Source: Candidatus Omnitrophota bacterium
Lineage (GTDB): Bacteria; Ratteibacteria; UBA8468; B48-G9; JAFGKM01
Direction: 5' to 3'
Assembly: GCA_023819375.1 (NCBI GenBank)
Contig: JAMWDI010000001.1
Location: 62,001-126,000, forward strand
Length of the DNA: 64,000 bases
The notes under the pieces were generated by a model that saw only the letters and a list, made by a program, of their open reading frames with translations, ran no database searches and had not been told where the DNA came from. A program made the translations under genes and the position numbers. Within the stretch, counting starts at the first letter, position 1. Each line of letters opens with the position of its first letter. Below, one piece after another: positions 19,323-34,105 of this stretch.

Positions 19323-19352
19323 ATTTTAACTTCTTTTGTTTATTTATGTCAA
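19323..19352 (-). promoter_or_regulatory. Promoter of tRNA-Asp (and possibly thrS operon)
   Basis: On the minus strand, perfect TTGACA (complement of 19347-19352), 18-base spacer, TAAAAT (complement of 19323-19328), then 10 bases to the tRNA 5' end at 19312. The -35 box overlaps the earliest possible start of the divergent SfsA gene (ATG 19346), which favours a later SfsA start. Confidence 0.72.
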
Positions 19353-19363
19353 TTTTTAACTTT

Positions 19364-20482
19364 ATGATAAAATTTTCTAAAAATACAAAAATGAAAGAAG
19401 CACTTTTCATAGAGAGAATTAATAAATTTACTGTAAAATGTGAAATTAACAATCATATTATTAAAGCCTATTTACCAAATTCTGGAAGACTGTGGGAATT
19501 ACTGTTACCAAAAAGGAAATTATATCTTAAAGAAAAAAATGGAAATTTAAATTATAAAGTTTTTGGTGTTGAAAGAAATGGATATTTTATATGCCTTGAC
19601 ACACATTATACAAATACTCTGGTGAAACAATTTTTAAAAAAAAATATTATTAAAGATCTAACTGGTTATAAAATAAAAAAAGAGGAATTTAAAATTGAAA
19701 ATACAAAGATAGATTTTTTAATAGAAAAAGAAAATAAAATAGTCCCCCTTGAAGTCAAATCTTGCACTCTTTTCGAAAACAATATTGCAATGTTTCCAGA
19801 TGCTATTACACAAAGAGCCAAGAAACATCTTGAAATTCTTGAAAAAAATAATGGCATCATACTTTTTATCGTTTATTATCCTGAAGCAAAATATTTTTTG
19901 CCGGAATTTCATATAGATCCTTTATTTTCAAAAAAACTTTATGAATTAAGAAATAAAATTCTTATAAAAGCAATATCTGTAAAATGGATTGGAGATGAAA
20001 AATTTGAATTTGTTAAAGAGATTGAAATCCCTTGGCACATATATGAAAAAGAAGGAAAGGATAAAGGAAATTATTTAATTTTAGGTAAATTAAACAATGA
20101 TATCTATTTAAAAATAGGTTATCTTGAAAATTTATTTTTTAAAAAAGGATATTATATTTACGTTGGCTCTGCCATGAACTCTTTAACTGCGAGAATAAAG
20201 AGACATTTGAAGATAAACAAAATTAAAAAATGGCATATTGATTATTTTATACCTTATCTCAATGATTTGAAATCAATATCTATAAGATCTTCAGAAAATC
20301 TTGAATGTTTAGTATCAAATGAACTTGAAAAAATTTCTAATGGAATTATAAAGAATTTTGGTTCTACAGATTGTAAATGTAAAAGCCATCTTTATTTTTT
20401 TGAAAATAACCCTCTTTGTAATGAAAAATTTATAAATATTTTATTGAAATTTAGAATAGGCAGGTTAAATAAATTTTTTTAA
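19364..20482 (+). CDS. sfsA: SfsA-like nuclease fused to DUF123 GIY-YIG domain
   Basis: About 372 residues. Residues 1 to about 220 are SfsA (AYLPNSGRLWELL, FLIEKENKIVPLEVKSCTL with the PD-(D/E)xK-like ExK, FPDAITQRAKKHLEIL). From about 245 the protein is a DUF123/GIY-YIG-like domain: FFKKGYYIYVGSAMNSLTAR, RHL, KKWHIDYFIPYL, ECLVSNEL and FGSTDCKCKSHLYFF. Both halves are putative DNA/RNA nucleases, normally separate genes. Starts at 19346, 19364 and 19391 are possible; 19364 best fits the family N-terminus and avoids the tRNA promoter. No clear ribosome-binding site. Function in the cell is not established. Confidence 0.88.
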   Translation: MIKFSKNTKMKEALFIERINKFTVKCEINNHIIKAYLPNSGRLWELLLPKRKLYLKEKNGNLNYKVFGVERNGYFICLDTHYTNTLVKQFLKKNIIKDLTGYKIKKEEFKIENTKIDFLIEKENKIVPLEVKSCTLFENNIAMFPDAITQRAKKHLEILEKNNGIILFIVYYPEAKYFLPEFHIDPLFSKKLYELRNKILIKAISVKWIGDEKFEFVKEIEIPWHIYEKEGKDKGNYLILGKLNNDIYLKIGYLENLFFKKGYYIYVGSAMNSLTARIKRHLKINKIKKWHIDYFIPYLNDLKSISIRSSENLECLVSNELEKISNGIIKNFGSTDCKCKSHLYFFENNPLCNEKFINILLKFRIGRLNKFF

Positions 20483-20499
20483 AAATAATATAATTTTAC

Positions 20500-20552
20500 T
20501 TGACAAAAGTTTTTTAAAAAGTATAATGAATATATGAACATATGAGTATATA
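20500..20552 (+). promoter_or_regulatory. Promoter and candidate ArsR operator of the redox-permease operon
   Basis: Perfect TTGACA (20500-20505), 16-base spacer, perfect TATAAT (20522-20527). Just downstream, 20531-20552 is an imperfect palindrome centred on CATATG with TATAT/ATATA arms (16 of 22 positions symmetrical), containing ATATGAAC, the half-site style of SmtB/ArsR operators. Position over the transcription start fits repression relieved by a metal or metalloid. Confidence 0.75.
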
Positions 20553-20561
20553 AGAAAATAA

Positions 20562-20927
20562 ATGGAAAAGTATGTTGAATATTTAAAAGCGATTGGAGAA
20601 CCCACAAGATTGAGAATAGTAAAATTATTGTTAAAAGCGAAAGTTCCTCTTTGTGTATGTGAAATTATGGATTGCATAAAAGCAAATCAAACAAACGTAT
20701 CAAAACATTTAAAAGTATTAAAATATTCTAAACTTATCAAGGAAAGAAAAGAAGGGAAATTTGTTATGTACTCAATCATAAAACCGAAAAATGATTTTCT
20801 AAAACATTTATTTGAGACACTTGAAAAAATTCCTGATAAATTTTTTGAATCAGATATGAAATGTTTAAATGAAAGATCATTGATTATCAGGAAAAGATGG
20901 AAAATGTGTAATAATAAAAAATGTTGA
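20562..20927 (+). CDS. ArsR/SmtB-family metal-responsive repressor
   Basis: 121 residues with a winged helix-turn-helix: AIGEPTRLRIVKLLL, then LCVCEIMDCIKANQTNVSKH (recognition helix) and the wing EGKFVMYSII. The CVC motif in the helix before the HTH corresponds to the alpha3 Cys-Val-Cys inducer site of ArsR/CadC-type sensors; more Cys lie at the C-terminus (MCNNKKC). Likely senses a thiophilic metal or metalloid such as As(III). First gene of the operon, overlapping the permease by 7 bases. Confidence 0.93.
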   Translation: MEKYVEYLKAIGEPTRLRIVKLLLKAKVPLCVCEIMDCIKANQTNVSKHLKVLKYSKLIKERKEGKFVMYSIIKPKNDFLKHLFETLEKIPDKFFESDMKCLNERSLIIRKRWKMCNNKKC

Positions 20928-21967
20928 AAGAAATTATACTTGGTGGCTTTTTAGCACTAAAAGATTACATTGCAACCCATATTTTAACCTGCCTTGTGCC
21001 TGCTTTCTTACTTGCTGGAGGGATGATAAGTTTTATAAATAAAGAAATAATAATAAATTATCTTGGAACAAAAGTTCATAAATTAAAATCCTTTACTCTT
21101 GCAGGATTTGCAAGTTTTCTTGTTGCTGTTTGCTCCTGTACAGTTATACCTATCTCAAGTGGCCTTTATTATACAGGTGCAGGAATTGGGCCTGCTTTTA
21201 TTATTTTATGGGTTGCTCCTTCTTCTAATATTTTATCTTTGATTTATACAGGAAATATTATAGGAGGCAAAATTGTTCTTGCAAGAGTTATAAGTGCTTT
21301 ATTAATGGCTTTTGTTGTTGGAAGTATTATGAGTTATGTTTTTAGAAAAGAAAAAATGGAAGAAGTTAAAATTGAGAGAGAAATAAATGAAAAAGTAATT
21401 GAAAGAAAATACTTAATTCTTTTAATTTTAATACTTATTTCTCTTCTTGGCCCAAATTATATTATTCAGAAAGGCCCTTATTGGAAGAAAGTTATTGTAT
21501 GGTTTTTCTTTACATTTATAATATGTGTTTATTCTTACAAAAAAATTGAAAAAGAAAAAATAAAAAGTTGGATTAGAGAGACATTATTTTTTGTAAGAAT
21601 GATTTTTCCACTTTTACTTATTGGTGTTTTTATTGTAGGAATTATAGGGAAAATTTTACCTGAAAACTGGATAGAGAAATTTCTTGGTGGAAATAGTTTA
21701 AAAAGTAGTTTTTTTGCAACTTTAATAGGAGCAACAACATATTTTGCAACATTAACAGAAGCGCCTTTTGTTGATACATTAATGAAACTTGGTATGGGTA
21801 AAGGACCTGCATTGGCTCTACTTTTAACAGGCCCTGGTTTAAGTTTGCCAAACTGGATTGCAATTTCAAGAGTATTTGGTATCAAAAAAGCGGTTGTTTA
21901 TGTTTTAACTATTATATTCTGTGGAACAATAGTAGGATGGTTTTTTGGAAACTTTATTTTGAAATAA
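20921..21967 (+). CDS. CSC-motif permease, ArsP/SO_0444 type (PF03773 family)
   Basis: 348 residues, about 8-10 TM helices in two repeats, inner membrane. The first repeat carries VAVCSCTVIPISSGL (CSC motif) near residue 68, the second TYFATLTEAPFVDTL. Family members export organoarsenicals, selenite-linked products, Cu or Zn; the exact substrate here is unknown. A short basic loop separates the repeats with no CxxC. It directly follows arsR and precedes a thioredoxin-like gene by 12 bases. One of three such permeases in the window. Confidence 0.88.
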   Translation: MLKEIILGGFLALKDYIATHILTCLVPAFLLAGGMISFINKEIIINYLGTKVHKLKSFTLAGFASFLVAVCSCTVIPISSGLYYTGAGIGPAFIILWVAPSSNILSLIYTGNIIGGKIVLARVISALLMAFVVGSIMSYVFRKEKMEEVKIEREINEKVIERKYLILLILILISLLGPNYIIQKGPYWKKVIVWFFFTFIICVYSYKKIEKEKIKSWIRETLFFVRMIFPLLLIGVFIVGIIGKILPENWIEKFLGGNSLKSSFFATLIGATTYFATLTEAPFVDTLMKLGMGKGPALALLLTGPGLSLPNWIAISRVFGIKKAVVYVLTIIFCGTIVGWFFGNFILK

Positions 21968-21979
21968 AAGGAGGTGCAT

Positions 21980-22213
21980 ATGGAAATTTTAATAGTTGGT
22001 GCAGGATGTCCTAAATGTCAGGCAGTTGAAAAAGTTGTAAAAGAGGTTGTTGAAGAGTTAAAAATTTCTGCAAATGTTTCTCATCTTTATGATGTAAGAG
22101 AATTTCCTAAATATAAAGTTACAATTACTCCTGCAATAGTTATAGATGGAAAAGTTGTAATGGCAGGAAGAGTTCCGTCAAAAGAAGAAGTTAAAGAATT
22201 GTTAAAAAAATAA
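21980..22213 (+). CDS. Small thioredoxin-fold protein (CPKC)
   Basis: 77 residues from ATG 21980, placed 5 bases after the strong site AAAGGAGG; an upstream in-frame GTG at 21974 overlaps that site and is rejected. Opening MEILIVGAGCPKCQAVEKVV has the redox CxxC; ITPAIVIDGKVVMAGRVPS is the cis-Pro region and end of the fold. This small cytoplasmic thioredoxin family (redox-active disulfide protein 2) commonly sits beside ArsP-type permeases and CcdA. Likely passes electrons to or from an operon partner. Confidence 0.9.
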   Translation: MEILIVGAGCPKCQAVEKVVKEVVEELKISANVSHLYDVREFPKYKVTITPAIVIDGKVVMAGRVPSKEEVKELLKK

Positions 22214-22227
22214 AAAGGGAGGCCCGA

Positions 22228-22581
22228 ATGAAACCAAGATTTATAATGTGTATATGTACAGGTCAATGTCCTGGATTTAAAAGTTTAGATTTATGGGCTT
22301 TAATTAATTATGTAAGGAATGAACTTGATGTTGAGTATGCAATAGTTCACCCACAATTGTGTGTTGATGATGGAGATAGATTTTTTAAAGATTACATTAA
22401 ACCAGATGTTAAATATATCATTGGAGCATGTGACCCAAAAATGCAGAGGAAAATGTTTAAAGATGCTTTTTTAGAAAGTGGTGGTGATTATGATAAACAG
22501 GTTATTTCTCTTGATTTAAGAAATATATCAACAGAAGAAGCAATGAAAAAAGTAAAAGAGGTTGTTGAAAGTTTAAAATAA
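22228..22581 (+). CDS. HdrA N-terminal-like stand-alone cysteine protein
   Basis: 117 residues resembling the N-terminal domain of heterodisulfide reductase subunit A without the flavin part. Features are FIMCICTGQCPG with CxCx3C (Cys 8, 10, 14), HPQLCVDDGDRFF where HdrA has the C-S-D-P-G-Q segment, and IIGACDPKMQRKMFKDAF where HdrA has ACSPRMHEPTF. It may bind an Fe-S cluster or do thiol chemistry together with the two downstream ferredoxins. A stand-alone version is unusual. Shine-Dalgarno GGGAGG precedes the ATG. Confidence 0.7.
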   Translation: MKPRFIMCICTGQCPGFKSLDLWALINYVRNELDVEYAIVHPQLCVDDGDRFFKDYIKPDVKYIIGACDPKMQRKMFKDAFLESGGDYDKQVISLDLRNISTEEAMKKVKEVVESLK

Positions 22582-22590
22582 GGAGGTAAG

Positions 22591-22887
22591 ATGAATAGAG
22601 ATAGAAGTACATATACAGGACTACCAAGAAAAGAGATTGATTGGTTTCCAAAAATTGACTATGAAAAATGTAATCCAGAAGAATGTAATTATCATTGTGT
22701 AAATTTCTGTCCATTTGGTGTCTTTTCAAAAGATGCAAATGGGAAAGTTAAAGTTTCTCAACCTTATGAATGTAATGTTGGGGATGAATCATGTAAATTT
22801 CAGTGTCCACTTGGTGCAATAAAATTTCCTACGAGAGAGGAATTAAAAATGATGTTAAGAAAGTTAAGAGAAAAATATCAAAAATAG
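22591..22887 (+). CDS. Ferredoxin-like protein with altered cysteine spacing
   Basis: 98 residues. The first cluster motif is stretched: KCNPEECNYHCVNFCPFGVF (C-x4-C-x3-C-x3-CP, against Cx2Cx2Cx3CP in the sister gene). The second is ECNVGDESCKFQCPLGAI (C-x6-C-x3-CP). It shares the frame I-x-WFPKIDYEKC and a C-terminal FPTREELKMMLRKLREK helix with the next gene, so the two are tandem duplicates that have diverged. Could hold one or two [4Fe-4S] clusters; the altered spacing may tune or remove one. Confidence 0.82.
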   Translation: MNRDRSTYTGLPRKEIDWFPKIDYEKCNPEECNYHCVNFCPFGVFSKDANGKVKVSQPYECNVGDESCKFQCPLGAIKFPTREELKMMLRKLREKYQK

Positions 22888-22896
22888 GGGGCAAAT

Positions 22897-23163
22897 ATGT
22901 TTAAGGAGATTCCAAGAGAGAAAATACCATGGTTTCCAAAGATTGATTATGAAAAATGTATTGGTTGTAAAGAATGTTATAATTTCTGTAAAAATGGCGT
23001 TTATCAATGGAATGAAGAAAAAAATATTCCTATTGTTAAAAACCCATATAATTGTGTTGTCGGATGTTCTGCATGTGCAAATATTTGTAATGGAAATGCA
23101 ATAGATTTTCCAACAAAAAAAGAATTAATGGAGGCAATTGCAAAGTTAAAAGAAAATAAATAA
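22897..23163 (+). CDS. Ferredoxin (two 4Fe-4S-type motifs)
   Basis: 88 residues. First motif KCIGCKECYNFCKNGVY (Cx2Cx2Cx3C), second NCVVGCSACANICNGNAI. The usual Pro after the last Cys of each motif is Lys or Asn. N-terminal IPWFPKIDYEKC and C-terminal FPTKKELMEAIAKLKENK mirror the preceding gene. Cytoplasmic electron carrier; a likely electron source for CcdA through the thioredoxin-like protein, which is inference from operon context. Confidence 0.87.
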   Translation: MFKEIPREKIPWFPKIDYEKCIGCKECYNFCKNGVYQWNEEKNIPIVKNPYNCVVGCSACANICNGNAIDFPTKKELMEAIAKLKENK

Positions 23164-23165
23164 AA

Positions 23166-23861
23166 ATGGAAAAGATCGGTTACTGGGGTAGTTTTGGACT
23201 TGGGATTATAACAAGTTTAACACCTTGTTCACTTGCTTTACTTGTTGCCGCTTTATCTTTTATTATTGCTGAAGAAGAAAATTTTAAGGAAGGGCTTTAT
23301 ATTGGGATTTCTTTCACTATTGGAATGTCATTAGTTTTTTTTATTTTTGGTTTGTTTATTTCTAAAATAGGTCAATTTACAAGAATCTCTCATGTTTTTT
23401 ACATAATCGCGGGGATTCTTTTGTTAATTTTTGGTATATATCAATTTGGAATGTTTAAAAGAAAATCTCAATCTATAAATATTGTCCAAAGAATTGGTTT
23501 TTCAATTTTATATTCTGGAAAATCTAAAATAATTTCTTCATTTTTACTAGGAATTCTTTTTTCTCTTGGTTGGGCTCCATGTGCTACTTCTTTAATTATG
23601 CCTGTTGCAATTCTTGTTATGAGTCAGGAAATAAGTGTTTTAAAAGGTGGCTTTTTACTTTTTCTTTTTGGGTTTGGGCATGGATTTCCTGTTTTAATAC
23701 TTTCCGTATTATCCGAACAGATTCGTTCAAGAACAATAAAAAAATTTACAAAATCTGGAATATATATCTCAAAAATTTTTGGAGGGATTTTGATACTTAT
23801 TGGTTTAATTTTTATAATATATGGTCCTAAAATAAATATTTTACTGGAGAAGAAAAAATGA
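23166..23861 (+). CDS. CcdA/DsbD-type transmembrane thiol-electron transporter
   Basis: 231 residues, six TM helices. The two redox cysteines are in SLTPCSLALLVAAL (TM1) and LGWAPCATSLIMP (TM4), the CcdA/DsbD-beta hallmark. It moves reducing equivalents from cytoplasmic thioredoxin to an extracytoplasmic thiol protein. Here a thioredoxin-like protein is encoded upstream and an exported redoxin downstream (4-base overlap), so donor and acceptor are both plausibly in the operon. Confidence 0.92.
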   Translation: MEKIGYWGSFGLGIITSLTPCSLALLVAALSFIIAEEENFKEGLYIGISFTIGMSLVFFIFGLFISKIGQFTRISHVFYIIAGILLLIFGIYQFGMFKRKSQSINIVQRIGFSILYSGKSKIISSFLLGILFSLGWAPCATSLIMPVAILVMSQEISVLKGGFLLFLFGFGHGFPVLILSVLSEQIRSRTIKKFTKSGIYISKIFGGILILIGLIFIIYGPKINILLEKKK

Positions 23862-24376
23862 AAAGTATATTAATTTTTTTAATCTTTGCTTCTTTTATTT
23901 TTGCAAATCCAAATAAAGCACCTGATTTTACATTAAAAGACCCATATAATAACGAATTTTCGTTATCAATGTTTAAAGGAAAAACTATTATTCTAAATTT
24001 CTTTAAAATATATTGTGGTGGGAAAATAGCACCTGAAACAGAAAAATTAATTAATGAATTAAATAAAATATGTAAAGAGTTTTGTAAAGGGAAATTTTGT
24101 AAAGATGGTGATTTAACAATTATAAGCATTACCGTTGCAAGTTGTCCAACTACTGATTTAAAGGAATGGGTTGAAAAAAAAGGGATAAAATGGTTTATTG
24201 GAAATGATTTGGATGATTATAATCTTGATATAATTAAAAGTTATGCTTCACATTTAAAATATTTGAAAGATCCTTGTTTAATTTTTATAAATAAAAATAG
24301 TGAAATTGTGTATAAATCAAATTATATAAGTGCAGAAGAAATTAAAAAGAAATTAAAAGAATTAAAATTAAAATGA
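23858..24376 (+). CDS. Exported redoxin (AhpC/TlpA-like) with lost CxxC and a Cys-rich insert
   Basis: 172 residues. A signal peptide (SILIFLIFASFIFA) is followed by the redoxin start NKAPDFTLKDPYNNEFSLSM. The active-site region reads FFKIYCGGKIAPE: one Cys and no CxxC. Shortly after is an unusual segment NKICKEFCKGKFCKDG with three more Cys, then VASCPTTDLKEW and DPCLIF. The many periplasmic Cys make it a likely CcdA client or a metal/metalloid-handling redoxin. Overlaps the next small gene by 4 bases. Confidence 0.78.
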   Translation: MKSILIFLIFASFIFANPNKAPDFTLKDPYNNEFSLSMFKGKTIILNFFKIYCGGKIAPETEKLINELNKICKEFCKGKFCKDGDLTIISITVASCPTTDLKEWVEKKGIKWFIGNDLDDYNLDIIKSYASHLKYLKDPCLIFINKNSEIVYKSNYISAEEIKKKLKELKLK

Positions 24377-24558
24377 AAAAGAAAGAAGTTATTGAATTTG
24401 AAGAAAAAGACATAATTGAAATTTCAAAGATTGTTATAGATGAAGATAAAGAAACTGCTTTAAAATATTTGAAAAAAATTTATGAAATTTTAAAGAAAAG
24501 AGAAAAATCACACTGTAAAACAAGTTATGCATGGAATAACAAAGAAATTAAAAAATGA
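24373..24558 (+). CDS. Small unknown protein (61 aa)
   Basis: 61 residues, highly charged, predicted helical (IIEISKIVIDEDKETALKYL) with one Cys and one Trp near the C-terminus (HCKTSYAWNN). No recognised family. It is joined by 4-base overlaps to both neighbours, which strongly suggests it is translated. Conceivably a small partner of the Fe-S protein that follows. Confidence 0.6.
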   Translation: MKKKEVIEFEEKDIIEISKIVIDEDKETALKYLKKIYEILKKREKSHCKTSYAWNNKEIKK

Positions 24559-25091
24559 ATATTACAATTGAAAGAATTATGCCATGCCTTGCAGACCCTG
24601 AAAAAATAAGATTTGTTGCAAAGATTGATGAAGATATAAGTGAATATTTACCTTACCTAAATGCAATTATACCAAAGGCAATATACAATCATACGGGAAA
24701 ATCACTAACAATTACGATGGGTGAAAGAATAATTACAATTTATCCAAATAAAATTTCTGCAGGAAAAATAAATGATGAAAAAGATGCAAATGAAATAATA
24801 AAATGGATAAAAGAAAAAATAGATTATTGTAAAGAAAATAAGGAGAAAATAAAACCAGATTACAAAAGAAAGGATAAACTTGAAGTCCTGCATGTATATA
24901 AACTCCTTCCTCAAAAAAATTGTAAGAAATGTGGAGAAAATAGTTGTCTTGCTTTTTCAATAAAACTCATTAATGAAGAAAAAAATATAATTGATTGTAA
25001 AGAAATTTTTCTACCTGAATATGATGAGAAAAGAAAATTATTATTTGATATGTTAAAAGCATCTGGTTATAATGTTCCTTCATTTTATTAA
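24555..25091 (+). CDS. Fe-S binding protein with CxxCGxxxC (PF04060-like) domain
   Basis: 178 residues. The N-terminal about 95 residues are unassigned (ERIMPCLADPEKIRFVAKID). The C-terminal part has NCKKCGENSCLAFSIKL followed by IIDCKEIF, the four-Cys [4Fe-4S] pattern also seen in the corrinoid/CODH gamma subunit and RnfB. Last gene of the arsR operon; the convergent ZIP gene begins 2 bases on. Likely an electron-transfer or cluster-bearing partner of the ferredoxins. Confidence 0.8.
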   Translation: MNITIERIMPCLADPEKIRFVAKIDEDISEYLPYLNAIIPKAIYNHTGKSLTITMGERIITIYPNKISAGKINDEKDANEIIKWIKEKIDYCKENKEKIKPDYKRKDKLEVLHVYKLLPQKNCKKCGENSCLAFSIKLINEEKNIIDCKEIFLPEYDEKRKLLFDMLKASGYNVPSFY

Positions 25092-25092
25092 T

Positions 25093-25899
25093 TTAAAAAG
25101 CAATATCAAAAATCATCATCAAAATAAAACCAAAAATAAAAGAAATTGTTGATAAGTCTGTATTCCCACTTTTTTGTGTTTCAGGAATAACTTCTTCTAC
25201 TACTACATAAACCATAGCACCTGCTGAAAAAGATAAAGCATAAGGCAAAATTTTAGAAGAAATAGAAACAATTAAAGCCCCTAAAAATGCAAAAATTGGC
25301 TCTACAAAACCAGATAACTGTCCAATAAAAAAACTTTTAAATTTGCTCATTCCTGAGGCTAAAAGAGGTAAACTTATAGCAAGACCTTCTGGAAGATTTT
25401 GGATACCTATCCCAAACGCAAGAGAGGATGCATTTAAAAAGGAATTAAAGTTCTCATCATATTTTAAAGATCCGAAAGAAACACCAACTGAAAGCCCCTC
25501 TGGAATATTATGTAGAATTATTGCAAAGATAAGTAAAAAATATATTGGAAGTTCTTTTTTTATTCCCTCTTTCTCATATATTTCAAAATTTAAATGCAAA
25601 TGAGGAATAATTTTGTCAAGTAAAAGTAAGAATAAACTTCCAAATAAAAAACCAAATGTTACAGGGAACCATGTAGGAACTGATAAATTTTTTGAATATT
25701 CAATTGAAGGAAGTATTAAAGAAAAAAAACTGGCAGAAAGCATAACTCCACCAGCAAAACCAAGCATAGAATCAAAAAGTTTTCTGTTTTCTTTTTTATT
25801 TAAAAAAACTATTGAAGAACCTATCAAAGTCATAAACCAAGTAAAAAGACCAAATAAAAATGCCTGCAAAATTGGATTAAAAGTAAAAAGTTTTACCAT
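25093..25899 (-). CDS. ZIP-family metal transporter
   Basis: 268 residues, eight TM helices. TM4 has the metal site LHNIPEGLSVGVSFG (HNxPEG) and TM5 GIGIQNLPEGLAISLPL, where the usual His is replaced by Gln. A His-rich variable loop is present (KIIPHLHLNFE). Imports Zn, Fe or Mn. It forms a minus-strand unit with the ferritin-like gene 4 bases upstream, suggesting iron or zinc homeostasis. No transporter of this type is elsewhere in the window. Confidence 0.9.
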   Translation of the reverse strand: MVKLFTFNPILQAFLFGLFTWFMTLIGSSIVFLNKKENRKLFDSMLGFAGGVMLSASFFSLILPSIEYSKNLSVPTWFPVTFGFLFGSLFLLLLDKIIPHLHLNFEIYEKEGIKKELPIYFLLIFAIILHNIPEGLSVGVSFGSLKYDENFNSFLNASSLAFGIGIQNLPEGLAISLPLLASGMSKFKSFFIGQLSGFVEPIFAFLGALIVSISSKILPYALSFSAGAMVYVVVEEVIPETQKSGNTDLSTISFIFGFILMMIFDIAF

Positions 25900-25903
25900 T
25901 ATT

Positions 25904-26389
25904 TTATAAATTCATCCAATTCCATATCTTACTTTCTTCTTTTTGAAACCAATCACCTGTTTCAGAAAGATAAGAATAAACATTAACAATTGCTTCAAGA
26001 TGCTGTTTCTCTTGATTCATTAGAAATTCATAAAGTTTTTTCTCTTGTTCATTTTTCGCAGAGTTATAAAATTTTTCATAAAGTGAATAGCTCTTTTTTT
26101 CCAATTCAAGTGCTACTTTATAACCATTCAATTGTGTTTCTATTTTTGATTTTTCTTTTATATCAGAAAAAAATTTTTTCATTTCATCCTCAATTTTAAT
26201 CTCATACCTAATTTGATATTTTCCCAAGATCAAAAATTCTTCTATTGCTTCAAGATGTTCAATTTCCTGTTTTGAAAGCATATATAGAAGTTTCTTTGTA
26301 AGAAAATTGTCTGCCTTTAATGCAAGTTCAATATAAAAATTTGCTCCTTCCTTTTCAATTTCTTTAGCATAATTAATCATATTTTCCAT
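25904..26389 (-). CDS. Ferritin-like diiron protein (rubrerythrin superfamily, no rubredoxin domain)
   Basis: 161 residues from ATG 26389, preceded by AGGAGG; the open frame to 26413 is upstream of that site. Two ExxH-type carboxylate repeats, EIEKEGANFY/KQEIEHLEAIEEF and ALELEKKSYSLY/NQEKQHLEAIVNVY, form the four-helix diiron site. No rubredoxin CxxC pair. Likely peroxide scavenging or iron binding. It lies between a ZIP transporter and an unknown gene. Confidence 0.85.
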   Translation of the reverse strand: MENMINYAKEIEKEGANFYIELALKADNFLTKKLLYMLSKQEIEHLEAIEEFLILGKYQIRYEIKIEDEMKKFFSDIKEKSKIETQLNGYKVALELEKKSYSLYEKFYNSAKNEQEKKLYEFLMNQEKQHLEAIVNVYSYLSETGDWFQKEESKIWNWMNL

Positions 26390-26402
26390 AAAACACCTCC
26401 TA

Positions 26403-26726
26403 TTAAATTTCACTTATACTTGTATCTGGACCATCTTCTACTTTTATAAACAATCTTAAACCTTTCTCTATAACATTTATCCTTTCTATATCAAAATTAT
26501 CAGGTAAAATTCTTATGTGGGCTATATTATCCCTTGGTATAAGTATAATTCTTTTTTCACTATCTATATCCACTGGCTTTACTTGACCTTTAATAACTAC
26601 AATCCCTTTACCTTCAATCATTATCCAGTTCTCAGTAAATTTTAATACCTTTCCAACAAAAACCCATAATTTTTGTTCCTGGAAATACTTTTTAAATCTT
26701 ATTTTCACAATTTTCCCTTCAATCAT
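26403..26726 (-). CDS. Unknown small beta-rich protein (107 aa)
   Basis: Predicted mostly beta strands (KLWVFVGKVLKFTENWIMIE, VKPVDIDSEKRIILIPRDNI, then AHIRIL), no TM or signal. The alternating short strands and the ending RDNIAHIRILPDNFD resemble Sm/SH3-like small domains, but I cannot assign a family. It precedes the ferritin-like gene with a strong GAGAGGAGG site, and a decayed arsC copy lies 28 bases upstream. Confidence 0.6.
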   Translation of the reverse strand: MIEGKIVKIRFKKYFQEQKLWVFVGKVLKFTENWIMIEGKGIVVIKGQVKPVDIDSEKRIILIPRDNIAHIRILPDNFDIERINVIEKGLRLFIKVEDGPDTSISEI

Positions 26727-27191: not shown

Positions 27192-28322
27192 ATGCTAAAT
27201 TGGACTTTCCACACCTGGATTGGAACAATTTTTACTTTTGCTTTTGGATTTTTTCTTATTGGTAGAAGATTAAGGAATAAAATAAAATGGTTAAACAGTT
27301 TATTTACAAAATTAGAAAGTTGGTTTAACTCTGTTTTCAGTGATAAAAGGAAAAAAATTTTCATTATCATTCTTATCCTCGTCAGTGCAGGTATTTTTAT
27401 AAGATGTTATATTTGTGAATCAAATAAAACACTTTTTGAAAAAAATTATATGAATTTGGTCTATTTTCACCTTTTCTTTCGCTATTTTATAAGAACATTT
27501 CCTATGATAGTTGCTGGTGCAATGCTTGGTGGTATAATTGAAAAATATTTCGGTTATGGGAAACGCAAATTACCTTCCAGTATGTTAGGAGCAGGATTTG
27601 TGGCTTCTGTAATTCCTATTTGTTCGTGCTCTGTTATTCCAATAGCACATTCTCTTTTGCTTACAAAAAAAATGCCTCTCAGAACGGTAATAACTTTTTT
27701 AATTGTAGCGCCTGTTTTAAATCCTTATGTTATTTTTTTAGGAACTTCAATCATCGGCTGGAAATATACATTCTTTAGAATTGTTAGTATTTTTTTATTA
27801 GGAATGACAACAGGAATTCTTATGGAAAAATTTATAGGGATTAAAGAACAAGGGCCACTTGGAATAAAATATTATTCCTGCCAAGGGTGTTCAAAATTCA
27901 AAAAAGAAATTCATAACAATCCTAATCCTTCTGCACTTCTTTCAACGTATAACATACTTTCAGAACTCTTAGTTTATGTGATAATAGGAATTGCTATAGG
28001 TTCTGCAGTTGCCAAATATTTACCTCCTAAAGTTGTTGGAAATTATCTTTCCTCAAATACACTTGGTTTATTCCTTGCTACAATTGTTGGTATACCTCTT
28101 TTCATCTGTTCTGGAGAAGAAATATTGATTCTTAAGCCCCTTTTACATTTTGGTTTACCATTGGGACACGCCATTACTTTTACTATAGCAGGAAATGGAA
28201 TATGTTTTGCCAGTATACCTATTTTATTACCTTGTTTTGGAAAAAAAGCAACCATTTTTATTTTATCTTCTTTTTTTATTGGTTCATTTTTGATAGGACT
28301 TTTAATAAATATATTACTTTAG
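27192..28322 (+). CDS. CSC-motif permease with central CxxC loop (PF03773 family)
   Basis: 376 residues. An N-terminal TM plus basic segment are followed by two permease repeats. Repeat 1 has VIPICSCSVIPIAHSLLL (CSC), repeat 2 has IPLFICSGEEILILKPLL. The central loop contains YYSCQGCSKFKKEI, a CxxC that could bind metal, absent from the first permease. Substrate unknown; a metalloid or soft-metal exporter by family. It stands alone on the plus strand between a dead arsC copy upstream and the intact arsC convergent downstream. Confidence 0.85.
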   Translation: MLNWTFHTWIGTIFTFAFGFFLIGRRLRNKIKWLNSLFTKLESWFNSVFSDKRKKIFIIILILVSAGIFIRCYICESNKTLFEKNYMNLVYFHLFFRYFIRTFPMIVAGAMLGGIIEKYFGYGKRKLPSSMLGAGFVASVIPICSCSVIPIAHSLLLTKKMPLRTVITFLIVAPVLNPYVIFLGTSIIGWKYTFFRIVSIFLLGMTTGILMEKFIGIKEQGPLGIKYYSCQGCSKFKKEIHNNPNPSALLSTYNILSELLVYVIIGIAIGSAVAKYLPPKVVGNYLSSNTLGLFLATIVGIPLFICSGEEILILKPLLHFGLPLGHAITFTIAGNGICFASIPILLPCFGKKATIFILSSFFIGSFLIGLLINILL

Positions 28323-28356: not shown

Positions 28357-28764
28357 TTAATCAAATTCATTTTTTACAATTCCCTCAATTTTTTCTTTTA
28401 ATATATCCCTAACCTTTCTAAACTCTTCTATATTGCCCCTTTTGGTAGGATTTGGAATTTTCCAATACAAAGTTTTTTTCGCTTTTCCTTGAAAAACAGG
28501 ACATACCCCATCTTCATCTCCACTACATACAAATATAACATAGTCAAATTCTTCATTTAAAAATTCATTAACTGATTTACTTCTCTGATTTGATATGTCT
28601 ATTCCAATTTCTTTCATAACATATATTGCTAAAGGATGAACTGATTGTGGATGTGAACCAGCACTGAAGGCAATAAATTTATCTTTATAAAAATGATTAA
28701 TTATTCCTTCAGCCATTTGACTCCTTGCAGAATTTTCTTTACACAAAAACAATATTTTCTTCAT
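28357..28764 (-). CDS. arsC: Thioredoxin-type arsenate reductase
   Basis: 135 residues of the LMW-phosphatase fold. P-loop LCKENSARSQMAEG (CX5R, Cys8) and the two shuttle cysteines in FVCSGDEDGVCPVF (Cys80, Cys88) match the three-Cys mechanism of S. aureus/B. subtilis ArsC, reducing arsenate with thioredoxin. Position as last gene of the pst-phoU run makes sense, since arsenate enters through phosphate transporters. It overlaps phoU by 4 bases. A dead paralogue lies at 26755. Confidence 0.93.
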   Translation of the reverse strand: MKKILFLCKENSARSQMAEGIINHFYKDKFIAFSAGSHPQSVHPLAIYVMKEIGIDISNQRSKSVNEFLNEEFDYVIFVCSGDEDGVCPVFQGKAKKTLYWKIPNPTKRGNIEEFRKVRDILKEKIEGIVKNEFD

Positions 28765-29417
28765 CCTTCTTCAAAATGGTGTTTAATTATTTTCCCTTCT
28801 ATCATAAATATTACATCTTCACATATATTTGTTGATAGATCTGCTATCCTTTCTAAATTTTGGGCAATTCTTATTAAATGCAACGCTCTTTCAATTACAC
28901 TATAATCCTCAACCATATAGGTAATCAATTCTCTTGTTATCTGGTTCCTTAAGCTATCTACAATATCGTCCCTTTTACAAACATCTTTTGCAAGATCAAT
29001 TTTTTCTTCTATAAAAGAACTGATGCTATCTTTAATCATCTTTGTAGATTCTTCAGCCATTCTCGGTATATCAATTAATGGTTTCACATCCGGTCTTTTA
29101 ATTAAAAACAATGAACTTTCACAAATATTGACAGCGTGATCGCCTATTCTTTCTAAATCATTATTTATTTTAAGTACCATTAAAACTACTCTTAAATTTC
29201 TTGCTTTTGGTTCGTATTGAGCAATTATTTCTATACATAATTCATCAATTTCAATTTCAAACCTGTTTGCGATTGGTTCCAATTTTTCAATAACTTCTTT
29301 CAATATTTCTTCTTTTTTCTCAATCAATCCTTTTATACTTTTGTCAATCATTTCTTCAACCAAAAGACCGAATTCAATTATTTTTTGCTTCAATATCTTT
29401 ATTTTTTCTTCAATCAT
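28761..29417 (-). CDS. phoU: Phosphate-specific transport accessory protein PhoU
   Basis: 218 residues, two tandem three-helix PhoU repeats (about 10-95 and 115-205). Metal-site patterns are visible as LRVVLMVLKINNDLERIGDH in repeat 1 and ALHLIRIAQNLERIADLST in repeat 2 (consensus E/DRxxD/H). PhoU relays PstB state to PhoR to shut off the Pho response. It follows pstB by 14 bases. Confidence 0.95.
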   Translation of the reverse strand: MIEEKIKILKQKIIEFGLLVEEMIDKSIKGLIEKKEEILKEVIEKLEPIANRFEIEIDELCIEIIAQYEPKARNLRVVLMVLKINNDLERIGDHAVNICESSLFLIKRPDVKPLIDIPRMAEESTKMIKDSISSFIEEKIDLAKDVCKRDDIVDSLRNQITRELITYMVEDYSVIERALHLIRIAQNLERIADLSTNICEDVIFMIEGKIIKHHFEEG

Positions 29418-29431
29418 AATTTTTCTCCTTT

Positions 29432-30190
29432 TTAACCAAATTTACCACTCAAGTATTCTTCCGTTTTGGGGTTTTCAGGAGCAGTAAATATTTTTTCACT
29501 TTTACCATATTCAATCAATTCTCCAAGATATAAAAAGGCAACATAATCAGCAATTCTTGATGCCTGAGAGATGTTATGCGTAACAATAATTATAGTAACA
29601 TTATCCTTCAACTTTTCAAGTAAATTTTCTATTTCAACAGTTGATTTTGGATCGAGTGAAGAAGTTGGTTCATCAAGTAAAATAATCTCAGGATTCAAGG
29701 CAAGAGATCTTGCTATGCATAATCTCTGCTGCTGACCACCCGAAAGTTGTGTTCCTTTTAAATAGAGTTTATCTTTAACTTCTTCCCAAAGAGCAACCTT
29801 TTTAAGACAATCTTCCACTATTTTATCTTTTTCTTCTCTTTTAAGTTTAATCCCATTTATTATATATCCTGCTAAAACATTTTCATAGATTGATAAATGA
29901 GGAAAAGGATTTGGTTTTTGAAAAACCATCCCTATTTTCCTTCTTAAAAAAACAGGATTCATCTCAAAAATACTTTTATCATTTAAAAAGATATCGCCTT
30001 TATGAAATGCCTCTTTATTTAATTCATGCATTCTATTTATGCATCTTATTAATGTTGTTTTACCACAGCCAGATGGTCCCATAATTGCAGTTATTTTTTT
30101 TTCAAATATTTCAAGGTTTATATTTTTTAAAACTAACAAATTTCCGTAACCTGCTGAAAAATTTTCAAATTTTAAAATTTTACTTTCCAT
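29432..30190 (-). CDS. pstB: Phosphate ABC transporter ATP-binding protein
   Basis: 252 residues. Walker A GPSGCGKTTLIRC (about 36-48), Q-loop FQKPNPFP typical of PstB, signature LSGGQQQRL, Walker B ILLDEPTSSLD, H-loop VTHNISQASRI. Energises phosphate uptake through PstCA. Overlaps the pstA end by 19 bases. Confidence 0.98.
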   Translation of the reverse strand: MESKILKFENFSAGYGNLLVLKNINLEIFEKKITAIMGPSGCGKTTLIRCINRMHELNKEAFHKGDIFLNDKSIFEMNPVFLRRKIGMVFQKPNPFPHLSIYENVLAGYIINGIKLKREEKDKIVEDCLKKVALWEEVKDKLYLKGTQLSGGQQQRLCIARSLALNPEIILLDEPTSSLDPKSTVEIENLLEKLKDNVTIIIVTHNISQASRIADYVAFLYLGELIEYGKSEKIFTAPENPKTEEYLSGKFG

Positions 30191-31002
30191 TTTTTAAGTC
30201 CAACTTTACTTATGGAATTCAAAATTAAAATTAAAATAATTAAAACAAAAGCACATCCCCACGCTTGCCTGTGCCAATCTTCGTAAGGACTCATTGTATA
30301 GGTAAAAATTAAAAGAGACAAAGAACTCACAGGTTTACAAATATTAAAATTTAAAAATGAATTACCAAAAGCAGTAAATAATAAAGGCGCTGTTTCTCCT
30401 GAAATTCTTCCTAAACCAACTAAAACACCAGAAAGTATGCCGTTTATTGAAATTGGAAGTATTACTTTAAAGATAGTTCTTGGATATGAACTCCCAAGTG
30501 ATAAAGATGTTTCAATCATTGAAAAAGGGACCATCTCAAATGTTTCTTTCGTTGCTTTTGCGATAATTGGAAGAAAAATCAATGATAAAGCAACTGAACC
30601 AGCAATTGCAGAGAAATGTCCCATTTTTTTAACTATCCATAAGTATGCAATAATACCAATTACAATTGAAGGTATACTTTGCAAGACATCAATTAATATA
30701 TTACAAATTTTTCCTATTTTCTTTTCCTTAAATTCATAAAGAAACATACCAAAAAAAATACCAATTGGAATAGAAATTAAAGAAGCAAAAAATAAAAGTA
30801 AAAAAGTGCCTGCTATTGCATTTAAAATCCCTCCTCCTATTTCTCCAGGGGGTTTAGGTAAAGAAAAGAAAAATTTGAGATTTATTGAAGAAAGCCCATT
30901 TTTCAAAATTATATAAAAAATAAAAAATAAAGGAGTAAGCGTTAAAAAAGATAAAAAAATAACCAAAAATTTAAAAATTCTATCTTTAAAAATTTTCATC
31001 AT
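30172..31002 (-). CDS. pstA: Phosphate ABC transporter permease PstA
   Basis: 276 residues, six TM helices. The EAA loop region around KATKETFEMVPFSMIETSLS and LGSSYPRTIFKVILPISING is typical, as is RISGETAPLLFTAFGNSF. Forms the inner-membrane channel with PstC. Overlaps pstC by 4 bases. Confidence 0.97.
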   Translation of the reverse strand: MMKIFKDRIFKFLVIFLSFLTLTPLFFIFYIILKNGLSSINLKFFFSLPKPPGEIGGGILNAIAGTFLLLFFASLISIPIGIFFGMFLYEFKEKKIGKICNILIDVLQSIPSIVIGIIAYLWIVKKMGHFSAIAGSVALSLIFLPIIAKATKETFEMVPFSMIETSLSLGSSYPRTIFKVILPISINGILSGVLVGLGRISGETAPLLFTAFGNSFLNFNICKPVSSLSLLIFTYTMSPYEDWHRQAWGCAFVLIILILILNSISKVGLKKWKVKF

Positions 31003-31859
31003 ACTACCTTTTTGATTATATTATTTGCAATTAAATTTAAAATGAACGTTATAACAAAAAGAATCAGAGCCAGTTCAATAAGTGCAGAAATATGTATTTT
31101 AGTAATTGCTTCTAAAAATTCATTGGCTATTACCGATGCTATGGTATTTCCAGGTAAAAAAATAGACCGAGGAATAGTGTTTACATTGCCTATTACCATT
31201 GTTACTGCCATTGTTTCGCCAATCGCTCTACCAAAAGAGAGTAAAAATCCAGCAATGATGCCACTTTTAGCATAGGGTAAGATAATCTTTTTTATTACTT
31301 CATAATGTGTTGCTCCAAAAGAAAATGCCGCCTCTTTTAAATCAGTAGGGATAAGTTTTATAACTTCTTTTCCTACAGATATAGTATAAGGGATAATCAT
31401 AATTGAAAGAACAAGTGAAGCAGTAAAAACGCTTACACCTGTTGGAGGTAATGAAAATTTTATTTGCAAATTTCTTACAATTGGTGCAAGATAAAAAAGT
31501 CCCCACAATCCAAAAACAACAGAGGGAATAACTGCAAGAATTTCTATAAATGTTTCAAAAATTTTAGAAAAAATAGTATCTTTATAATATTCACCAATAA
31601 ATAAAGAGACTGATAAAGAAAAAGGTATAGATATTATCAGAGAAATTATTGATGTTAGGAGAGTTCCAACGATAAATGGAAAAGCGCCAAAATTTTCAAA
31701 AACAGGATCCCACGTTTTATTTATTAAAAAAGAAAAACCAAATTTTTTAATAGATATTGATGAGTTAATAAACAAAGTGATAAAAATAGAAAGGAGGAGT
31801 CCTATTATTAGAACTCCTCCTATTGCAATTATTCTTTTATAAATTTTTTCAAAACTCAT
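30999..31859 (-). CDS. pstC: Phosphate ABC transporter permease PstC
   Basis: 286 residues, six TM helices with the PstC marks FINKTWDPVFENFGAFP-type segment, PLPF-like region IISIPFSLSVSLFIGEYY, EAA loop KEVIKLIPTDLKEAAFSFGA, and GRAIGETMAVTMVIGN. Pairs with PstA. Overlaps pstS by 4 bases. Confidence 0.97.
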   Translation of the reverse strand: MSFEKIYKRIIAIGGVLIIGLLLSIFITLFINSSISIKKFGFSFLINKTWDPVFENFGAFPFIVGTLLTSIISLIISIPFSLSVSLFIGEYYKDTIFSKIFETFIEILAVIPSVVFGLWGLFYLAPIVRNLQIKFSLPPTGVSVFTASLVLSIMIIPYTISVGKEVIKLIPTDLKEAAFSFGATHYEVIKKIILPYAKSGIIAGFLLSFGRAIGETMAVTMVIGNVNTIPRSIFLPGNTIASVIANEFLEAITKIHISALIELALILFVITFILNLIANNIIKKVV

Positions 31860-32893
31860 TGAATTAAAATTTTACCATTAAAATGAAGTTTTTTCAACAA
31901 ATTTTCTGCATTTTCAACTGCAGATTTTCCAAGTGGTGCATAGTGAAGAGGTCTTGCAAACTTTTGTCCTTCATGTATCATCCACCATAAAAGATTAGCA
32001 AGATCTTTTGCTTTCTCATAAGTCATTCTTTCATTTGCTTTACCCAAATTTTTATAAACCAATATATATGTAAAAGCAGATATTGGATAACCTTTTTTAT
32101 TTTCAGTGTCTGTTATAGTTATTCTCATGTCTTTGGGTAGTTTTACATTTGATGCCTCCGTTATTGATTCAACAGATGGCTTAATGAAATTGCCTGCCTT
32201 ATTTTTTACCAAGCCAAATAGTAAGTTATTCTGTAAAGCATATGTAAGTTCTACATAACCTATCGCTCCTGGAGTTTGTTTCACAAGACCACTCACTCCC
32301 TCATTACCCTTTCCTCCAAGACCTACTGGCCAGTTTACACTTGTGCCACTGCCAACCTTTTCTTTCCACTCTTTACTTACTTTTGATAGATAATCTGTAA
32401 AAATAAAAGTTGTTCCGCTTCCATCAGATCTTCTTATCACTGTAATATTCATATCTGGTAAATTTTTATCTTGATTCACCTTTTTTATTTTTTCATCATT
32501 CCATTTTGTTATTCTGCCAAGGAAAATATCTGCAATTATTTCTGGAGTAAACTTAATTTCAGGAATATCTAAATTGTATGTTAAAACAACTGCTCCTAAA
32601 CAAATAGGTATATGCAAAATCTCGTCATCAAATTCTTTCAATTGTTCATCCGTCAAAATAGCATCACTTCCAGCAAAGTCAATTGTTTTTGCTTTCAATT
32701 GCCTTATTCCTCCACCAGAACCAATTGATTGATAATTAACTTTTACTTTATAAGTTTTATAATACTCGTCAAACATTTTTGAATATAATGGGTAAGGAAA
32801 ACTTGCACCTGCTCCTGTTAATTCAGTTTGACTATAGAGTTTTGCAATGTTTAGTAAGATTATGTTTAAACATAATAAAATTTTTTTAAACAT
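31856..32893 (-). CDS. pstS: Phosphate-binding protein PstS
   Basis: 345 residues. A signal peptide (ILLCLNIILLNIAKLYS) precedes TELTGAGASFPYPLYSKMF, the mature start. Phosphate-binding motifs: NYQSIGSGGGIRQ, FAGSDAILTDEQ, VIRRSDGSGTTFIFTDYL. Periplasmic; there is no lipobox Cys, so it is likely soluble, as in didermic bacteria. It follows the porin by 12 bases with a GGGGG site. Confidence 0.97.
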   Translation of the reverse strand: MFKKILLCLNIILLNIAKLYSQTELTGAGASFPYPLYSKMFDEYYKTYKVKVNYQSIGSGGGIRQLKAKTIDFAGSDAILTDEQLKEFDDEILHIPICLGAVVLTYNLDIPEIKFTPEIIADIFLGRITKWNDEKIKKVNQDKNLPDMNITVIRRSDGSGTTFIFTDYLSKVSKEWKEKVGSGTSVNWPVGLGGKGNEGVSGLVKQTPGAIGYVELTYALQNNLLFGLVKNKAGNFIKPSVESITEASNVKLPKDMRITITDTENKKGYPISAFTYILVYKNLGKANERMTYEKAKDLANLLWWMIHEGQKFARPLHYAPLGKSAVENAENLLKKLHFNGKILIQ

Positions 32894-32905
32894 TTTACCC
32901 CCTTT

Positions 32906-34105
32906 TCAAAATTTTATTAAATAATCTAATTGAACTGTGTTTCTTCTATCACTTCTCGGACTTAATGGTTTACCTATAAAATAAGTCAATCCCATAGAAG
33001 AATACTTACTTATTTGATAACTAAAACTTATTTTATGTCCTTTTAAAGATGTCCCTCCGCCATTTATATCAGAATCACTTAAAATGGCAAGTGTAGCATC
33101 ATTTTCTATCAATCTATAATTATACTCAAGATACCAGTCATTTTTATCTTTCAATTTTCCTATTGAAAACCCTATCATCCATGCATTATCATTATTGGGT
33201 ACCTGTGAAAAAATATTTTTTACATATTCACCATATATTCTAAATGGTTTGTTAATTACATTAAAAGGTGTTATTTCAATCAGAAAATCTAATGGTCTGT
33301 ATTCATAAAGATAGATATAATCAGGAGTACCGGAATCACTATTTCCCTTTGGACTATATTTTGGACTAACATCAGATTTCTTCTTACCTACAAGATTATC
33401 TGTTATATAAATTCCACCAGCAATTTTAAAATTCTTATCTTTAAATTTACTATCATAACCAACTTGAAAACCATATATAACAGGATCATTTGTATTACTT
33501 TTAAATTCGTCAAGGAAAAAATATCCAAGGTTTAAAAAGAACCCTTCCTTAGAATTGAATGTTAAAGCAATTCCTTCTGGATTTATATCTGAATCCCAAA
33601 TTACATCGGAACAGTAAAAAGGATTTTCAATTTTACCTGCTAATATGTTGAAATTATTAATTTTATGTTTTACATATGCTCTATCTATCCAGATTGCTTT
33701 TTGAGAAAAGGAGTCCTCCAAAGTTTGATTTGTGGATGTTTGTTCTCCAACTCCACTTGCTAAACGCAAACCTACCTCAGTATTTTCCAGAATATCTGTT
33801 TTAAATCCCCACCTTGCTCTTATTCTTCCTCTACATCTGTCAGGGTCTGTTGACCCTTCTAAAATGTCATCATACTGGTATCTAACTCTTAAATCTCCTG
33901 AAAATTTTGTATTTTTCAAAAAATTATATTTTTCCTTTTCTTTCTTTTCTTCTCTTTCTCTTTCCTTTTTAATTTCCTCTTTTATTTCTTTTGCTTCTTC
34001 ATTTGTTATAACTCCCTTTTTAATCAATTTTTCAAGAAGAATATCAATCTCACCTGCAAAAGAAAATGTCAACATTAGAAGAAAAATTAGAAAAAATCTT
34101 TTCAT
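32906..34105 (-). CDS. Outer-membrane porin, probably phosphate-linked
   Basis: 399 residues. Signal peptide KRFFLIFLLMLTFSFAGE is followed by a charged helical linker (about 20-65, KEIKEEIKKEREREEKKEKE) and a beta-barrel from about 70, beginning KFSGDLRVRYQYDD and ending with the terminal aromatic LDYLIKF. This matches the putative-porin family with an N-terminal coiled-coil. Being directly ahead of pstS suggests phosphate or polyanion uptake, like OprP by role rather than by sequence. Good evidence for an outer membrane. Confidence 0.85.
   Translation of the reverse strand: MKRFFLIFLLMLTFSFAGEIDILLEKLIKKGVITNEEAKEIKEEIKKEREREEKKEKEKYNFLKNTKFSGDLRVRYQYDDILEGSTDPDRCRGRIRARWGFKTDILENTEVGLRLASGVGEQTSTNQTLEDSFSQKAIWIDRAYVKHKINNFNILAGKIENPFYCSDVIWDSDINPEGIALTFNSKEGFFLNLGYFFLDEFKSNTNDPVIYGFQVGYDSKFKDKNFKIAGGIYITDNLVGKKKSDVSPKYSPKGNSDSGTPDYIYLYEYRPLDFLIEITPFNVINKPFRIYGEYVKNIFSQVPNNDNAWMIGFSIGKLKDKNDWYLEYNYRLIENDATLAILSDSDINGGGTSLKGHKISFSYQISKYSSMGLTYFIGKPLSPRSDRRNTVQLDYLIKF

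Follow-up and report, generated by a model that had tools for sequence, protein, structure and literature searches.

In a genome of Candidatus Omnitrophota we find a small predicted iron-sulfur protein, here called HdrN, that is the N-terminal [4Fe-4S] domain of the heterodisulfide reductase subunit HdrA existing as a free protein, encoded beside two ferredoxins in an operon that begins with an ArsR-type regulator. The operon lies in a 64,000-nucleotide stretch of assembly GCA_023819375.1 (contig JAMWDI010000001.1, positions 62,001 to 126,000; hereafter the window), where its ten genes occupy 20562-25091 of the forward strand in the order arsR, PF03773 permease, thioredoxin, HdrN, fdxA, fdxB, CcdA, redoxin, a 61-residue open reading frame (ORF) and an FeS protein. 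The HdrN-ferredoxin pair recurs in many bacterial and archaeal genomes, several times within ordinary arsenic-resistance operons, and this suggests that metalloid detoxification draws electrons by a route not yet described. We put the probability at about one half that this is an inducible detoxification operon of an anaerobe, directed at arsenic or a similar thiophilic metalloid, in which the ferredoxins and HdrN feed a thioredoxin/CcdA relay beside an exporter.

Descriptions of arsenic detoxification usually involve NADPH, thioredoxin reductase and glutathione, together with exporters driven by ATP or protons. In anaerobes, metabolism runs on ferredoxin. An ArsR-controlled, conserved pair of ferredoxin and HdrA fragment, which ranges from Omnitrophota to Bathyarchaeota, would give metalloid resistance its own tap on ferredoxin, and would reveal what the HdrA N-terminal domain is capable of without a bifurcating flavin. 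HdrN also makes a clear marker by which ars-type operons can be recognised in uncultured hot-spring and sediment anaerobes. The source is a metagenome-assembled genome (MAG) of 1.73 Mb in 13 contigs, 94% complete. Related genomes come from hot springs and sediments; those found by name are Candidatus Omnitrophota. Genes were called mechanically as ORFs, operon proteins were assigned to families with Pfam and NCBIfam models, and the analysis tested gene content, the fold of HdrN, its invariant cysteines, and how regularly it is linked to ArsR, thioredoxin and arsenic genes.

HdrN and the N-terminal domain of HdrA

HdrN (22228-22581, forward strand) is 117 residues long and matched no Pfam family, and the HdrA equivalog model gave a weak score of 11.7 bits (cut-off 1400). 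When a profile of 63 HdrN relatives was compared with solved structures, HdrA subunits were the only significant matches (9sfi at E 3.7e-6, 5odc and 7bkb). When an AlphaFold2 model of HdrN, with a predicted local distance difference test (pLDDT) score of 95.7, was compared with solved folds, 114 of its 117 residues superposed on seven HdrA entries, at HdrA residues 4-139 and with Z scores of 11.4-13.5. These HdrA N-domains fill the top seven places of the fold ranking, and the next match, to an unrelated protein, has a Z score of 8.8. Because the profile finds only HdrA subunits and the model superposes over nearly its whole length, we conclude that HdrN is the HdrA N-domain as a free protein. 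A preliminary description of the sequence had suspected a stand-alone HdrA-N-like protein, and the model bears this out.

Five cysteines (Cys8, Cys10, Cys14, Cys45 and Cys68) are invariant in 81 of 81 sequences, the lone gap, at position 68, falling in an incomplete sequence. In the model all five sit at the ends of beta strands 1-3, along one edge of the fold. Cys8, Cys10, Cys45 and Cys68 align with HdrA cysteines in the profile alignment; Cys14 has no HdrA counterpart. In the methanogen HdrA, the N-terminal cluster lies on the ferredoxin route and one of its ligands, Cys197, is donated by the partner HdrA (PMC9012536). Cys14 of HdrN could stand in for this residue as a cluster ligand.

HdrN thus resembles HdrA in HdrABC complexes (e.g. 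PDB 8rvy, 7bkb, 5odc) in its fold, in four aligned cysteines and in having ferredoxin partners. Unlike HdrA, it stands alone, with no FAD/thioredoxin-reductase domain and no HdrB or HdrC, carries the extra invariant Cys14, and sits in metal-regulated operons. A split HdrABC or other bifurcating complex was rejected, as there is no FAD domain and no HdrB or HdrC among the ten genes. A small [4Fe-4S] protein that reduces thioredoxin from ferredoxin would hypothetically share its role with ferredoxin:thioredoxin reductase. However, HdrN belongs to another family and has five conserved cysteines rather than six; membership was rejected because HdrN has no Pfam match and the genome has no PF02943.

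Gene neighbourhoods of HdrN

One scan of 84,980 genomes yielded 118 relatives of HdrN, of which 80 were kept and used to survey gene neighbourhoods. These 80 span 14 or more phyla across Bacteria and Archaea and form two clades with about 40% mutual identity, both of which show the pattern of partners described below. The idea that the gene set is a curiosity of one assembly was rejected, as it recurs in other genomes. Within the source phylum HdrN is present in 8 of 35 genomes, a patchy presence as for an accessory trait. The loci are MAG contigs, so that partners can be hidden by contig ends and some organism labels may be wrong. HdrN is identical in an 'Endomicrobia' MAG (L033) and an Omnitrophota MAG (L035), reflecting either recent transfer or a mislabelled bin.

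A ferredoxin gene adjoins HdrN in 74 of the 80 loci; of the other six, several are rearranged or lie at a contig end. A tandem of an RLI-type seven-cysteine ferredoxin followed by an eight-cysteine ferredoxin, as in the window, recurs in Omnitrophota, Elusimicrobiota, Caldisericota, Chloroflexota and Bathyarchaeota. For other partners we compared family counts in the near and far flanks of the same HdrN loci; since these loci are related rather than independent events, the p values serve as guides only. ArsR was about sevenfold enriched near HdrN (46:3, near versus far; p 3e-6), and the TM0996-type thioredoxin was the best-linked partner apart from ferredoxin (31:0, p 2e-6). Linkage was also seen for the PF03773 permease (22:2, p 0.004), a DGC-domain protein (13:0, p 0.004) and ACR3 (8:0, p 0.03). 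Together, these data show a core of HdrN and ferredoxin to which ArsR and a TM0996/ArsE-type thioredoxin are strongly linked; around them, the accessory genes for permease, ACR3, CcdA, redoxin and FeS protein are interchangeable. The gene set had been presented as a unit, which held for ArsR, HdrN and ferredoxin and failed for the permease, CcdA, redoxin and CxxCG-containing FeS protein, all of which vary. The preliminary description would have given up its reading had the set been confined to one assembly or had no link to a permease or metal response; because HdrN and ferredoxin are found together with ArsR, thioredoxin and permease again and again, in genomes of different phyla, neither was the case.

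Several relatives lie directly within arsenic operons. Locus L095 runs ferredoxin, HdrN, an exported thioredoxin-like protein, CcdA, an ACR3 fused to universal-stress domains (395 bits, cut-off 283) and ArsC (165 bits, cut-off 174). L069 runs ArsR, HdrN, ferredoxin, thioredoxin, ACR3, thioredoxin-like protein and CcdA, and HdrN is also joined to ACR3 in L044, L053, L090 and L094; in all six of these loci ACR3 scores above its cut-off. L098, which has no ACR3, runs PF03773 permease, ArsM (371 bits, cut-off 263), Usp, thioredoxin, DGC, ferredoxin and HdrN. These relatives inside ACR3, ArsC or ArsM operons strengthen the metalloid-detoxification direction that had been proposed from the window alone.

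A different use of the pair has to be weighed here: HdrN and ferredoxin could form a general anaerobic module for electron supply or Fe-S maintenance, placed under many regulators and not specifically involved in exporting metalloids. Some loci would fit such a module: in Archaea they hold Mrp and DGC, in Chloroflexota SufC/SufD-like and YlbF-like genes, and ArsR is sometimes missing. However, the ArsR enrichment and the presence of ArsR, the permease, ACR3 or ArsM inside 6 kb of HdrN in 58 of 80 loci make it very unlikely in our view.

Further genes accompany HdrN in particular loci. In Brockarchaeota and Thaumarchaeota (L064, L072, L074, L075 and L076) a Mrp-type ATPase, DGC, HdrN and ferredoxin stand together, which may be another use of the module. 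A protein of the F420_oxidored family (PF03807), resembling a proline-biosynthesis reductase, is encoded beside HdrN and ferredoxin in about eight loci (including L025, L033, L034, L058, L073, L094 and L102), and in L093, L096 and L100 the last 4 bases of hdrN also belong to a hydantoinase/oxoprolinase-like gene.

A proposed electron route and its alternatives

We infer cluster chemistry, the order and direction of electron flow, and substrate as follows. Judging by their families, ArsR would repress the operon until a metalloid at its CVC cysteines releases the promoter, and the PF03773 permease would export trivalent or organic species. HdrN and the two ferredoxins would constitute a soluble Fe-S relay, like the ferredoxin branch of HdrA minus the flavin. 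The HdrN cluster would be completed by the protein's own extra cysteine rather than by Cys197 of a partner HdrA, and the ferredoxins would exchange electrons with it, as the ferredoxin domains of HdrA do with the same domain. Low-potential electrons could then pass from the cell's ferredoxin pool through the relay to the TM0996-type thioredoxin. Once reduced, the thioredoxin would keep cytoplasmic thiols and thiol-dependent reductases reduced, such as an ArsC-type reductase encoded nearby, and could also free metalloids from thiols. CcdA would carry electrons on across the membrane and hand them to the exported redoxin, and the FeS protein may be an additional [4Fe-4S] electron carrier. Because the genome has a thioredoxin reductase too, HdrN would add a further, inducible electron input.

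A number of findings weigh against this detoxification relay. First, the Pfam and NCBIfam scan of the ten genes found no ACR3, ArsB or ArsC, and there is no ACR3 in the source genome; judged by its sequence, the window operon is not a proven ars operon. Second, the thioredoxin reductase of the source genome scores 386.6 bits, and therefore the ferredoxin route is not the sole possible electron donor. Third, many HdrN loci consist of ArsR-HdrN-ferredoxin(-ferredoxin) alone, about 60% are without thioredoxin, most of those in Brockarchaeota and Thaumarchaeota are Mrp-DGC-HdrN-ferredoxin with no ArsR nearby, and linkage of CcdA (p 0.06), the FeS protein (p 0.18) and ArsM is in each case not significant alone. 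Finally, the CxCxxC of E. coli-type ArsR is not exactly matched in the window ArsR, and the CVC motif is also a signature of Cd/Pb/Zn sensors. The linear order from ferredoxins through HdrN, thioredoxin and CcdA to redoxin, as first drawn, is a conjecture: many loci lack thioredoxin and CcdA, and the thioredoxin reductase of the genome could be a donor as well. The idea that HdrN must replace an absent thioredoxin reductase was likewise rejected, as the enzyme is present and the window holds a gene for a second, similar protein. The latter (37510-38394, reverse strand) scores 293 bits, below the thioredoxin reductase cut-off of 343.

The minimal operons without thioredoxin, CcdA or exporter suggest that HdrN and ferredoxin may have a complete function of their own. 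HdrN-ferredoxin could act on the toxic species itself, an Fe-S site with a spare cysteine binding and reducing an arsenical (such as one in pentavalent, thiolated or methylated form) before export, with thioredoxin and CcdA serving other steps; the clustering of the five invariant cysteines along one fold edge would suit such a site. Yet HdrN is predicted to be a Rossmann-like domain with a single cluster, for which no catalytic cofactor is known and whose role in HdrA is that of a relay, and thioredoxin is its best-linked partner besides ferredoxin, so that we consider direct action unlikely. More broadly, and as a tentative suggestion only, HdrN-ferredoxin might be an undescribed, widely shared, flavin-free and ferredoxin-dependent reductase of anaerobes, induced by metalloids and reducing thioredoxin or an arsenical through a [4Fe-4S] cluster with a neighbouring redox cysteine; in Bacteria and Archaea alike, arsenic detoxification would then be tied directly to the low-potential ferredoxin pool.

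The arsR product (20562-20927, forward strand) is an ArsR/SmtB metalloregulator (HTH_5 46.7 bits; NF033788 80.2 bits, cut-off 55) with a CVC motif (C31, C33) in alpha3, a predicted thiol metal site that fits an ars-operon repressor. In the ArsRs linked to HdrN, the first cysteine of CVC is kept in 34 of 45 and the second in 40 of 45. The permease (PF03773, ArsP_1; 20921-21967, forward strand; 244.5 bits, cut-off 32.3) carries a CSC motif (C71, C73) that is kept in all 21 permeases linked to HdrN, and had no sequence match among solved structures. Substrate varies across the PF03773 family, and the metalloid is not fixed by CVC and CSC conservation or by the permease scores. The operon could respond to a thiophilic stress of another kind (Cu, Zn, Cd, Hg, Sb) or to persulfide, with arsenic genes being just frequent neighbours. 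The nearest NCBIfam permease models, SaoE (organometal) and the SO_0444 Cu/Zn exporter, the closest solved relatives of the window ArsR (Lmo1102, PagR, CzrA and CadC), and the ZIP transporter that adjoins the operon would all be consistent with this. However, both permease scores are far below cut-off (105.7 bits against 325 for the SaoE equivalog NF040736), ACR3, ArsC and ArsM are direct operon partners in several loci, and an ArsC-like gene and a second PF03773 permease lie within about 3.7 kb of the operon end. We therefore doubt that the stress is of another kind.

The second permease (27192-28322, forward strand; 111.8 bits) is a separate unit, and faces the ArsC-like gene (28357-28764, reverse strand), both 2.1-3.7 kb past the operon end. 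The latter, the arsenate reductase candidate nearest to the operon, encodes a low-molecular-weight phosphatase (LMWPc) that scores 97.6 bits on arsenate reductase models, below the equivalog cut-offs of 157-174. It ends a pst-phoU operon (28357-34105, reverse strand) of a putative porin, pstS, pstC, pstA, pstB, phoU and the phosphatase, i.e. phosphate uptake with a candidate arsenate reductase. Two further PF03773 permeases, at 45809-46642 (reverse strand) and G000:C5:31563-32396 (168 and 202 bits), bring the number to four per 1.7 Mb genome.

The operon can be compared with several known systems. With ars operons (ACR3, ArsC, ArsM, ArsP) it shares ArsR control and a PF03773 permease, and HdrN relatives share operons with ACR3, ArsC or ArsM; unlike them, it lacks ACR3, ArsB and ArsC, and the ferredoxin-HdrN pair is not described there in the literature searched. 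The ArsEFG system of Shewanella is associated with roxarsone and nitarsone resistance, according to the passage of PMC9144182 that cites Chen et al. 2019. An ArsE-type thioredoxin (TIGR00412) and an ArsG-like CcdA/DsbD membrane protein are common to both, but the window CcdA scores 68.4 bits on the ArsG model NF040495 (cut-off 200) and so falls far short of the ArsG equivalog. No ArsF model was among the NCBIfam matches of the operon proteins, in a scan that included no search aimed at ArsF. To our knowledge, ferredoxins and HdrN are not parts of ArsEFG. SAO and TSO are named as organometal selenoprotein operons in work cited in a passage of PMC13188914. Going by model names, they have in common with our operon a PF03773-type exporter, thioredoxin-like proteins, a DsbD-like protein and an ArsR-type regulator; in contrast, the window operon exceeds no Sao or Tso cut-off, and no HdrN/ferredoxin pair was seen among the Sao and Tso models. 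In the full-text literature searched, which covered few subscription papers, we found no description of HdrA-like and ferredoxin genes in metalloid operons. The closest case is arsenate-reducing Fusibacter, in which arsC genes adjoin ferredoxin and thioredoxin genes and a supply from ferredoxin to thioredoxin to ArsC, via NADPH and thioredoxin reductase, has been proposed (PMC9751042).

Operon layout and remaining genes

The ten genes, their order and strand, and their families, as given in the preliminary description, were confirmed by the ORFs and by Pfam and NCBIfam, and its label of an ArsR-controlled redox and permease operon held; NF033788, PF03773 and TIGR00412 all score above cut-off. 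The packing is tight, as had been noted, with gaps of 2-14 bases rather than 4-15, or overlaps of 4-7 bases. A near-consensus promoter and operator had also been claimed. The candidate promoter is in fact perfect, a sigma-70-type TTGACA-N16-TATAAT (20500-20527, forward strand; 12/12), and the same arrangement precedes arsR in relative L082; taken together, promoter-like sites are about as frequent in shuffles (52) as in the sequence itself (55). Just downstream of the -10 lies an operator-like dyad, TATATGAACATATGAGTATATA (20531-20552, forward strand; 8/11 pairs), which is mildly above chance in shuffled bases (p 0.02) and recurs near letter for letter at the same place before arsR in L082.

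The thioredoxin (21980-22213) is of the TM0996/MTH895/ArsE type, with a CPKC motif (TIGR00412 91.5 bits, cut-off 62; E 8.5e-13 to the solved MTH895 structure), and most likely starts at ATG 21980, behind AGGAGG. Like the other products described here, it is encoded on the forward strand. Two ferredoxins were indeed found, the first of which, FdxA (22591-22887), is no standard ferredoxin: by its cysteine pattern (seven cysteines, Cx4Cx3Cx3C...Cx6Cx3C) it resembles ABCE1/RLI. FdxB (22897-23163) is of the 2x[4Fe-4S] type, with eight cysteines in a conserved pattern and Fer4 families over cut-off. The CcdA/DsbD-type transmembrane electron carrier (23166-23861; PF02683 61 bits) has TPC and APC cysteines, C21 being conserved in 19/19 and C139 in 14/19 sequences. 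The redoxin (23858-24376), of the AhpC/TSA type (AhpC-TSA), has YCGG and ASCP cysteines and a hydrophobic N-terminal leader by which it would be exported, and is conserved in L026, L028 and L048. The 61-residue protein (24373-24558) matched no family and has one weak relative, in HdrN locus L077.

The FeS protein (24555-25091) joins a beta-rich N-terminal domain to a PF04060 [4Fe-4S] domain (42.6 bits). It has ten relatives in HdrN loci, in whose alignment the cysteine motif is invariant, and its C-terminal part is closest to the 4Fe-4S domain of the corrinoid Fe-S protein. The N-terminal domain, which has no family name, is confidently modelled, carries an LPYLNA..YN motif, and may be an undescribed domain; its likeness to a TBP half was weak (E 0.37) and was not used. 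A phage origin of HdrN, the FeS protein and the 61-residue protein was rejected, as none had a PHROG match, and a plasmid-borne element was rejected in the absence of a match among 72,556 plasmids. Directly upstream of the operon lies a gene for SfsA fused to a DUF123 domain (19346-20482, forward strand). Convergent with the operon are a rubrerythrin-like gene (25904-26413, reverse strand) and then the ZIP metal transporter gene (25093-25899, reverse strand), which is separated from the operon end by a single base.

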